Positions 3,751 through 48,540 of a stretch of DNA of 64,000 bases are shown piece after piece. This DNA comes from Pseudonocardiales bacterium (GTDB lineage: Bacteria > Actinomycetota > Actinomycetes > Mycobacteriales > Pseudonocardiaceae). The stretch is taken from positions 1 through 64,000 of the forward strand of contig JAHEXI010000014.1 of assembly GCA_023252195.1 (NCBI GenBank), read 5' to 3'. How positions within the stretch are numbered: position 1 is the stretch's first letter; every line of letters begins with the position of its first letter. A program made the position numbers and the translations under genes. The notes beneath the pieces are model-generated. The model saw only the letters and a program-made list of their open reading frames with translations, had not been told where the DNA came from and ran no database searches.

Positions 3751-3793
3751 TGCCCCCGGCAGGATTCGAACCTGCGACACACGGTTTAGGAAA
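3751..3793 (-). repeat. Attachment site: 43-bp copy of tRNA-Arg(CCT) 3' part (distal end of island)
   Basis: Forty-two of 43 bases equal 47770-47812, covering acceptor 3' strand, T-arm, variable region, anticodon 3' stem and anticodon loop. Both copies have the same orientation. Identity stops exactly in the anticodon loop, where tyrosine integrases commonly cross over in tRNA genes. Together with the integrase next to the intact tRNA, this marks the far end of a roughly 44-kb integrated element. Confidence 0.85.
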
Positions 3794-4473
3794 GTTCGCT
3801 AGACCATCGACTTGAGGCGCCAGCAGGCGTCTACCGTTACACGCGGCTCGCTCCAACTGCCCTGAGGTCATTAGTGATCTCCATTTCATTCCCTGGACCC
3901 TTCCCAGCGGGTGGCGTCGCTGGTTCCAGCGGCAAGCCACCGAGGGACGTGAGGCCAAAGACCAGGCCCCTCACGCAGCTGCCTCGCTGGCGCACCGCCG
4001 ACCAGATGCTGGACGCGACCCCCACCAATAGCGGCACGCCTCTTGAACAAGGGGCCGGCCTTTCGTCCCAGCAGCGTTTGAACTTGCACCTGCCCCGGAG
4101 GCAGGGACCCGCCGTAGGCCGTCCTGGGACCGCTGGACCTCGAAGGAAGACCTCCCTGACGTGCAGTGGGGATCGTGCGGTGCGGATCGTTGCCGAGGTG
4201 AGCGGCGAGTACAGCTTCGGAGCCCCGCAGGTAGTGGTAAATCGGCCGGGCGATCACGAGATCACCGCAAGCGAGTCCTACGGTGGGCAGTACCTGTTTG
4301 GTACCGTGTCGACGCCTTGGTCAAGTACGACTAGGTCCACTCTGCGTGTCTGCAGCAGCTTGGACAGCTTGATAGTGCTCCGGTGACCGGTCGAGCCTGT
4401 CGAGCTTGGGTGACTACGAGCTGGTTGGGCTGTAGGTAAGGAACGCGTCACCAGGGGCTAAGTAGCCGGTAGT
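3794..4473. other. No supportable gene
   Basis: About 680 bases at the distal edge of the island. Open frames are present on both strands, but none is recognisable or has a convincing start. Confidence 0.35.
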
Positions 4474-5106
4474 TCACTTGGCTGCCGCGGTGGACGCGTC
4501 TTCCTCGGGCTGGATGGCGTCGAGGTAGCGGTGCAGCGAGGTCTTGGGGATGCCGGTCTTGGCGGCGATCTGGCCGAGGCTGTGGCCCTGGGCCTTGAGC
4601 AGCCGGGCGTACTCGATCTTGTCGGCCGGGTGGGCGAGCGGGCGGCCGATGTGCCGGCCGGCGGCTTCGGCGACGGCGCGGGCGTGGGCGGCCCGTTCGG
4701 CGGTGTAAGTGCGCTCCATCTCGGCGAACAGAGCGAGGAGTAGGAACGCGATGCGGCCCATGCCTTCGTCGGTGGTGTTGATCGGCAGCGGGTCGGCGAG
4801 GGAGCGGACGCCGATGCCGCGCTCCGCCAGGTCGTGTACGAGGTTGAGGACCTCGCGCAGGTTCCGGCCAAGCCGGTCGAGGGTGTGCACAATGATGGTG
4901 TCGCCGGCGCGGGCGTAGCCGAGCAATGCGGCCAGGCCGGGACGGTCGACGGCGGTGCCGGTCTTCTTGTCGGTGTAGAGCCGATCGACCGCGAGCCCGG
5001 CGCCGGCGAGCGCGTGGAGCTGCCGCTCCAGGCTTTGTTTGGTGGTGGAGACGCGGGCGTAGCCGAGCTCCAGGCCGACCGCCGGGTGAGCGTGACCGGT
5101 CCCCAT
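4474..5106 (-). CDS. Serine recombinase (Tn3-type resolvase/invertase)
   Basis: 210 residues. The N-terminal catalytic domain opens with [16 protein letters not shown], in which the serine is the expected nucleophile. The conserved DRLGRN and [16 protein letters not shown] segments follow. A C-terminal helix-turn-helix is seen in [15 protein letters not shown]. Such enzymes resolve transposon cointegrates or invert short segments at res sites. Full length for the family, with ATG at 5104-5106. No complete Tn3 transposase is near; only a C-terminal scrap of one lies at 42860-43057. It could be a lone passenger of a lost transposon. Confidence 0.9.
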
Positions 5107-35005: not shown

Positions 35006-35356
35006 TTACCCGTGATGGTCTTCGCAGTCCCAGCGCTCTGCCACCGCGGCGACGAGATGCATGCCCCGCCCGCGCGGTTGGTGACCGCAAAGTTCCCGCA
35101 CGACCGGGCGGACGGCGGAGCCGTCGGCGATCGAGATCCGCAGCCACCCATCAGAAAAGGTAAGCTCAACAACGATGCTGGTCTGGCCCCTAACGTGATC
35201 GACAACGTTGGTCACCAATTCGGTAATGACCAAGGCGGCATCATCGCGACAGTGCTCGATCCCCCAGGGGCTGAGTAGTTCCAGCGTCACGTGGCGGGCA
35301 GCCGGGACACTGCGCGCCACGGTCGGCAGATCAACCCTCGCGGCGACGGTAGCCAT
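35006..35356 (-). CDS. Stand-alone HATPase (anti-sigma/RsbW-type serine kinase-like)
   Basis: 116 residues from ATG 35354-35356 (GAGGACGTC upstream). N-box ELVTNVVDH and G-box RGRGMHLVAAVAERW place it in the HATPase_c_2 group of RsbW/SpoIIAB-like proteins, so abundant in actinobacteria. Such proteins bind ATP and hold a sigma factor or phosphorylate an anti-sigma antagonist. No partner is adjacent. It is divergent from the small palindrome-controlled pair at 35529-35860. Confidence 0.8.
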   Translation of the reverse strand: MATVAARVDLPTVARSVPAARHVTLELLSPWGIEHCRDDAALVITELVTNVVDHVRGQTSIVVELTFSDGWLRISIADGSAVRPVVRELCGHQPRGRGMHLVAAVAERWDCEDHHG

Positions 35357-35496
35357 GACGTCCTCATTTCGGCACCCGGACCCCTGAGTGGGGAGGCGAT
35401 ACCGTGGGACTGTCTTGGAGACCGTTGCACGTTGTCGCCCCTCACGCAATACCGAGAGCAGCGGGCTGTCGCGTGCGGCGCACGTGTAGGACTGGA

Positions 35497-35527
35497 CGTG
35501 GAGTCTGACCATCGGTCAGACTCCACG
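35497..35527. promoter_or_regulatory. Perfect 31-bp palindrome at the start of the RHH gene
   Basis: CGTGGAGTCTGACC-ATC-GGTCAGACTCCACG: 14-base perfect arms around three bases, ending one base before the ATG of the ribbon-helix-helix gene. It is a strong candidate operator for that protein, since RHH antitoxins bind such repeats at their own promoters. If transcribed it would instead form a hairpin hiding the start codon. Confidence 0.75.
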
Positions 35528-35528
35528 C

Positions 35529-35669
35529 ATGACCGTCAAGGTTGGGATCTCGCTACCGGACGCGACGCATGCCCGGGCACTCCAGCATGCCCGCAGTACT
35601 GGGACCACCCTTTCCGGACTGATCGACGCCGCACTAAAAGCGGAGCTCACTCGCCGCGAACCGTGCTGA
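35529..35669 (+). CDS. Small ribbon-helix-helix protein (antitoxin-like)
   Basis: 46 residues, MTVKVGISLPDATHARALQ and TGTTLSGLIDAALKAELTRR. The short strand followed by two helices fits the RHH (CopG/CcdA) fold that binds DNA as a dimer. The stop overlaps the GTG of the next gene. The position directly after a 31-bp palindrome suggests autoregulation. It is shorter than many antitoxins, with only a minimal tail to bind a partner. Confidence 0.7.
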   Translation: MTVKVGISLPDATHARALQHARSTGTTLSGLIDAALKAELTRREPC

Positions 35670-35860
35670 TTGCGGAGATCGAGACCGGTACTCGTTACCG
35701 GGCCACCGCCTATGCCACCGAAACCGATTACGGTGTCGTGCTCGTCGACCGGGTGGTGTGGATGCCCGTCGACATGCTCGGCGAGCCGTTCGGCCGCCTG
35801 ACCGACGCGCAACGCGATCGCGTCATTAACCAAATCGTGGCCGTACTCCGAGGCGCCTAG
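35663..35860 (+). CDS. Small CcdB-like protein, candidate toxin of the RHH pair
   Basis: 65 residues from the GTG at 35663, overlapping the upstream stop by seven bases. VVLVDRVVWMPVDMLGEPFG and RLTDAQRDRVINQIVAVL recall the second half of CcdB/MazF-fold toxins, where a LGEPVG segment precedes the last helices. It is about two-thirds the usual length. It could be a compact toxin, or a partner of another kind. Operon structure and the palindrome support a two-gene regulatory unit. Confidence 0.55.
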   Translation: MLIAEIETGTRYRATAYATETDYGVVLVDRVVWMPVDMLGEPFGRLTDAQRDRVINQIVAVLRGA

Positions 35861-47720: not shown

Positions 47721-47769
47721 GAGGACTTCGACTGAGTATCCTCGGCGAGTCTGTGCTGCTCAAATGATG

Positions 47770-47812
47770 TGCCCCCGGCAGGATTCGAACCTGCGACGCA
47801 CGGTTTAGGAAA
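47770..47812 (-). repeat. Attachment site at the intact tRNA (integrase-proximal end of island)
   Basis: This 43-bp segment, from discriminator base through the anticodon loop, is repeated at 3751-3793 with one mismatch and at 1896-1935 with a two-base gap. It is the integrase-side end of the element. Confidence 0.85.
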
Positions 47813-47842
47813 CCGATGCTCTATCCCCTGAGCTACGAGGGC
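47770..47842 (-). tRNA. tRNA-Arg (anticodon CCT)
   Basis: 73 bases on the minus strand fold as a complete cloverleaf: acceptor GCCCTCG/CGGGGGC, D-arm with AGCTCAGGGGATAGAGC, anticodon loop TTCCTAA with CCT (complement at 47807-47809), T-arm GCAGG-TTCGAAT-CCTGC and discriminator A. It reads AGG codons. CCA is not encoded. Its 3' 43 bases form the attachment core shared with 3751-3793, so the gene was restored by the integrating element. Confidence 0.95.
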
Positions 47843-47870: not shown

Positions 47871-48540
47871 CTACCGTCTTGGCTCTGGTCCGCGTCTGGT
47901 CCGCGGGTTTGGCTGGGCCGCAGAGTCCACGGCCGGCGCCGCGGGCAGTGTCTCATGGTCTTGACCGGCCGTAAGAGCGGCCGTGATCTGGTCATTGATC
48001 GTGTCCTCCTGTCCGTCGATGCAGTTGACGTAGATCTTCAGCAGCACCGCAACGTCGTGACCGAGCCGCCGGGCGACCTCGGTCGGGTGGACACCGTTGT
48101 TCAGCCAGAGGGAGGCCGCGGCTTGCCGCAGGTCATAGGGTTGACGCGCCAGCGGTGGATGGACCTGCTCCTTCTGATCGGGCAAGCAGAAGCCGTCTCC
48201 AGCCGGAAGCTGGTATCTCGCAGTCGGTAGCCCTAGGGCTACCGACCTCGGCTGGTCGCACGCCCGCGTAGCACAGGCACCCGAAGAAGGCCACCAGGTA
48301 CTCGCCTCGGCGAGGCTGGTCTCGCACGGCGTCGAGCAGCACGCGGACCTGTTCAGGCTGGCCACGACCCGGCGGTCCACCGCTTCCGCCACATCGGGTG
48401 CCGTCCATTGCACCAGGTCAAGCCGGTTACTCAGAAACGCGTGCTGGTCCTCATCGATCTCGCCACCGCCGAACTCCGCAGCGGCAACCTCCCCGACGCG
48501 TGCTCCTACGCAACCAAGGCCGCCGATCTCCTCCACCAGG
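47871..48540 (-). pseudogene. Second tyrosine integrase, broken
   Basis: The 3' part reads QPYDLRQAAASLWLNNGVHP, VARRLGHDVAVLLKIYVNCI and DGQEDTINDQ, the end of a phage/plasmid-type integrase. The usual His of HxxR-containing DLRHAA is Gln here. Upstream pieces (GEYLVAFFGCLCYAGVRPAE) are in another frame, so at least one frameshift has killed it. It ends 29 bases from the tRNA 5' end, on the side opposite to the island integrase, and must belong to a different, older element. Confidence 0.75.

Follow-up and report, generated by a model that had tools for sequence, protein, structure and literature searches.

Does a palindrome followed by two overlapping genes of only 46 and 65 residues constitute a minimal toxin-antitoxin system, or is it what is left of a longer one? 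The question is raised by a locus in the window, the stretch of 64,000 nucleotides of DNA from a Pseudonocardiales bacterium analysed here, which a first-pass annotation had described as a minimal two-gene unit made of an RHH protein and a CcdB-like partner. The palindrome, both frames and their overlap had been placed at the right coordinates. A perfect 31-bp palindrome occupies positions 35497-35527 (CGTGGAGTCTGACC-ATC-GGTCAGACTCCACG; 14-nt arms, 100% complementary, around a 3-nt spacer), and a single base separates it from the ATG of the RHH frame (35529-35669, plus strand, 46 aa). This frame overlaps by seven bases a 65-aa frame that opens with GTG (35663-35860, plus strand) and makes up the 3' end of a 189-aa open frame (35291-35860). 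No Shine-Dalgarno sequence is present upstream of that GTG, where the DNA reads CACTCGCCGCGAACC. With arms of at least 14 nt and a spacer of at most 8, the palindrome is the sole inverted repeat in the 64 kb, and a relaxed version allowing three mismatches was found in none of 100 shuffles. A second perfect palindrome in the window, with 12-nt arms and a spacer of 0, lies at 48223-48246, near tRNA-Arg(CCT) at 47769-47842.

Truncated genes and their intact relatives

Comparison with homologues bears directly on the question. The genome to which the window belongs (G000, a 4.74-Mb assembly of 48 contigs) carries a second copy of the locus at G000:C10:27434-27993, hereafter the C10 copy, which is full length and is 95% identical to the window in the RHH protein and 89% in the toxin part. 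Full-length pairs also occur in G003:C125, G004:C51, G079:C84 and G095:C27, and a full-length toxin of this family is present in G407, which is counted here for its toxin alone. In the intact copies the antitoxin has 79 residues (that of C10 reads MTVKVGISLPDATHARAL...LAAWKTGR) and the toxin 107-111, and in all five pairs the GTG start of the toxin overlaps the antitoxin stop by four bases (GTGA). A complete antitoxin together with a complete toxin is thus found at each of these five loci and not in the window, which lacks 234 bp of the C10 arrangement, corresponding to antitoxin residues 45-79 and toxin residues 1-44. The distance from the ATG to toxin codon Val45 is accordingly 134 bp in the window versus 368 bp in C10 and G079. 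When the DNA of ten loci is aligned, the loss falls in one clean internal gap that follows antitoxin codon 44 and ends before toxin codon 45, with a junction at 35660-35663 (plus strand) that joins antitoxin codon 44 to toxin codon Thr44/Val45, as read from the assembled sequence alone.

What remains of the antitoxin is residues 1-44, after which come an out-of-frame dipeptide (PC) and a new stop codon, so that the RHH domain is complete and the C-terminal half is missing. The 65-residue frame corresponds to the C-terminal end of a 109-residue PemK/MazF-like toxin that has lost the first 44 residues, some 40% of its length, and its apparent GTG start is the internal toxin codon Val45. Read in this alignment, the seven-base overlap is a deletion scar. 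Both frames are truncated, the operator is conserved and an intact paralogue exists; the locus very probably descends by deletion from a type II toxin-antitoxin operon that paired an RHH antitoxin with a PemK/MazF-like toxin. The description as a minimal two-gene unit does not survive the truncation of both genes, an outcome that the first-pass annotation had itself named as counting against it. By the same comparison, the window pair is not a new minimal system, with its full-length copy standing elsewhere in the same genome. The ancestral layout would have comprised a palindromic operator on a leaderless promoter, the 79-residue antitoxin and then the 107-111-residue toxin with its GTGA overlap, and a single 234-bp deletion would have removed the C-terminal half of the antitoxin and the N-terminal 44 residues of the toxin. 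In type II antitoxins the C-terminal half is normally the toxin-binding part.

A displaced front end of the toxin was also considered. Upstream of the operator, in the frame of the toxin fragment, positions 35358-35400 read DVLISAPGPLSGE, which is like the missing front end (E 0.0057 for the frame and 0.045 for the stretch against the toxin HMM). Since the ribosome-binding site and start codon of an opposite-strand anti-sigma-type gene, conserved in G002 and G009, extend into this stretch, the likeness is more likely a coincidence. An anti-sigma/RsbW-type ATPase gene lies at 35006-35357 on the minus strand (HATPase_c_2, E 1.3e-7) and has 73% DNA identity in two genomes of the genus; the window's match ends at the gene start, beyond which the two relatives have different sequence.

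Identity of the antitoxin and toxin families

The first gene probably codes, as first read, for a protein of the RHH antitoxin type. The order of beta strand, helix and helix in the RHH domain of about 45 residues is visible from sequence, and the profile hits, all of them weak and sub-threshold, are to CcdA (E 0.0018), RHH_5, DUF6364 and YlcI_YnfO.

For the second gene, the "CcdB-like" label held in part: the protein is toxin-like and related to the CcdB/MazF superfamily, but the family that it matches is PemK/MazF (PF02452) and not CcdB. A CcdB identity was ruled out, as no form of the toxin matches the CcdB profile. PF02452 matches all 16 toxins of the alignment (best E 3.7e-5). The C10 toxin covers nearly the whole profile, with E 1.9e-4 and 22.1 bits versus a cut-off of 23.1, and the window fragment by itself has no PF02452 match. 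On these scores the intact toxin counts as PemK/MazF-like at a sub-threshold level. In MazF, the catalytic arginine follows the first beta hairpin (Arg29 in E. coli, within a K/R-R-P motif). This arginine is absent from the C10 toxin, which has a gap opposite the K-R-P segment (RP motif) of 7bye_B; MNY or the like stands at the position in more distant relatives, and in the window the region is wholly deleted. Because the catalytic arginine was not found, even the intact protein is best called a predicted toxin. Structure prediction gave a pLDDT of 50 for the intact toxin and 58 for the fragment, too low to place the deletion on the fold. A Foldseek search with the intact-toxin model put 7bye, a toxin-antitoxin complex, at the head of its hits and MazF-mt3 chains in the top ten, all at E values of at least 0.5, which is no evidence of relationship.

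Palindrome, probable operator and promoter

The core of the palindrome, GTCTGACCnnnGGTCAGAC, has two sites in the 4.74-Mb genome, one directly before each RHH copy, when searched as GTCTGACC-N-GGTCAGAC; its reversed control has none. In the window this inner core (GTCTGACC-ATC-GGTCAGAC) spans 35503-35521 and is the probable operator. Across 120 related genomes the core is found elsewhere in toxin-less remnants in G010 and at G003:C16 (see below) and once in G016, there without the spacer and at a site for which no link to an RHH gene was made, and in the remaining intact copies the core differs at one position or more. Eight of nine distinct loci conserve the right half, GGTCAGACT, together with its spacing from the start codon, and the left half varies. 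A palindrome at the promoter, a feature of toxin-antitoxin operators, is common to the homologous operons. The palindrome is probably an operator laid over the -10 element, for which CAGACT (35517-35522, plus strand), six bases before the ATG, is the likely candidate; a promoter of this geometry would be leaderless. In M. tuberculosis, for instance, 32 of the 37 toxin-antitoxin gene pairs whose primary start site has been mapped are leaderless (PMC3898074). An operator role had already been suggested on first reading, and it gains in probability from the recurrence of the core before homologous RHH genes. The same operator and promoter layout is seen in an unrelated RHH-PIN (VapBC-like) pair of this genome (G000:C41, locus L045, about 3788-4500), where a perfect 32-bp palindrome, AGCATCCGGTGCATCATGATGCACCGGATGCT, lies just upstream, TAGACT stands six bases before the GTG and the PIN partner matches PF01850 at 1.3e-11.

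At the outer ends of the window's palindrome, six bases per arm occur in the window copy only. Its left flank is like that of the relatives (CGTGG), and its right flank, TCCACG versus TGGCAG and the like, is the reverse complement of the left. Template switching at quasipalindromes is known to turn imperfect repeats into perfect ones (PMC7202029), and the outer arms may have been made perfect in this manner, by copying of the left flank onto the right.

The other role proposed for the palindrome, an RNA hairpin over the start codon, is highly improbable. As RNA, the stem is indeed very stable (-30.7 kcal/mol for 64 nt, z -3.6), but any perfect DNA palindrome folds likewise. Pairing is not kept in the relatives, in which the left half changes against a constant GGTCAGACT, and what stays fixed is the distance from GACT to ATG, as it would for the -10 element of a leaderless promoter. 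From such a promoter, the transcript would begin at the ATG and the palindrome would not be transcribed into the mRNA.

Present state of the remnant and other broken copies

The toxin remnant of 65 residues is most likely inert, and the 46-residue RHH protein may still be able to form dimers, bind the palindrome and repress its own synthesis, and perhaps that of the C10 paralogue; the operator core common to both loci makes repression of C10 in trans possible. Over the RHH residues, the window and C10 differ by 24 synonymous and 3 non-synonymous changes (dN/dS about 0.02), and among changes private to the window branch, three of four in the RHH part and six of eight in the toxin part fall at third codon positions. 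By this measure, the RHH and toxin fragments have not drifted in the manner of old pseudogenes. Such a preponderance of third-position changes implies either a recent deletion or continued selection on the short products, and the data fit both.

Two rival readings draw on this pattern. A genuine minimal pair would consist of a toxic 65-residue protein neutralised and autoregulated by the 46-residue RHH protein; open frames, an overlap and an operator are present, as such a pair would have, and the third-position bias extends to both fragments. However, this reading has to accommodate a toxin without some 40% of its length, an antitoxin without its entire C-terminal half and a start at an internal codon that has no ribosome-binding site. 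A search for the same small pair, which the first-pass annotation had proposed, moreover found it in no other genome searched, and the reading is very unlikely. A stand-alone RHH repressor, retained after the toxin function was lost and controlling both itself and the intact paralogue in trans, has a better though still low probability. Its RHH domain is complete and under strong protein-level constraint, the operator core lies at both loci and nowhere else in the genome, and a different toxin-less remnant, consisting of the operator and RHH residues 1-43, is present in G010:C194 and G003:C16. A young deletion would nevertheless account for the constraint equally well, and most of the divergence from C10 may predate the deletion. 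Type II repression, moreover, often requires the toxin as co-repressor. The fuller proposal, in which the toxin-less 46-residue repressor and its own operator have been kept and tune or silence the intact paralogue, and in which the genus has lost the toxin more than once while retaining operator and RHH domain, is somewhat more doubtful again.

The window copy is one of four distinct broken loci in the genus, as against five intact pairs, counts that refer to the genomes searched. G010:C194 and G003:C16 share an identical toxin-less remnant composed of the operator, RHH residues 1-43 and toxin scraps. G004:C8 has a shortened antitoxin and has kept the toxin front, with no recognisable operator, and at G003:C9 a partial operator and 27 RHH residues are left. 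The flanks of the G010:C194 and G003:C16 remnants (loci L041 and L042) are near-identical for about 3 kb on the upstream side and about 800 bp on the downstream side, and G010 and G003 count as two species; either a recent transfer or contamination in one of the assemblies would explain this. An ancestral deletion common to the window and G010:C194, whose junctions lie close to each other, was considered and set aside, as the RHH tree does not group them; this tree, built on the first 43 codons, has poor support (44-73% on deeper branches). In the genomes searched, the family is found only in the window's order, and no relatives turned up in plasmids or viral contigs (toxin search) or in phages (antitoxin search).

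This small family has been broken repeatedly within one genus, with the RHH domain and usually the operator outlasting the breakage. A decayed toxin-antitoxin locus can pass for a minimal new system when one genome is read. Should the leftover RHH protein bind both operators, it would be a straightforward example of a degraded locus that exerts cross-regulation.

Among known systems, MazEF/PemIK is like the intact relatives in having a small antitoxin gene first, an overlapping toxin of about 109 residues and a PF02452 match, but C10 scores just under the Pfam cut-off and has no catalytic arginine, and the window is without half of each protein. CcdA/CcdB is approached from the antitoxin side only, through the weak, below-cut-off match to CcdA noted above; no form of the toxin matches CcdB. 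The best solved match of the 79-residue antitoxin is Rv0298 (8u12) of the M. tuberculosis pair Rv0298-Rv0299, in a weak alignment covering residues 4-71 (E 0.054). There, too, the toxin partner is a MazF homologue; Rv0299 is an atypical one, reported to keep only two of seven substrate-binding residues and to be only marginally toxic (PMC5175181, where the sentence prints Rv2099 and the context indicates Rv0299). Unlike that pair, both window genes are truncated. With the short RHH regulators CopG and ORF56, finally, the window protein shares the state of an RHH domain standing alone in about 45-55 residues, and ORF56 (2k9i) aligns weakly to RHH residues 3-41 (E 0.29); in contrast to these regulators, the short form in the window would have arisen by deletion from a longer antitoxin.
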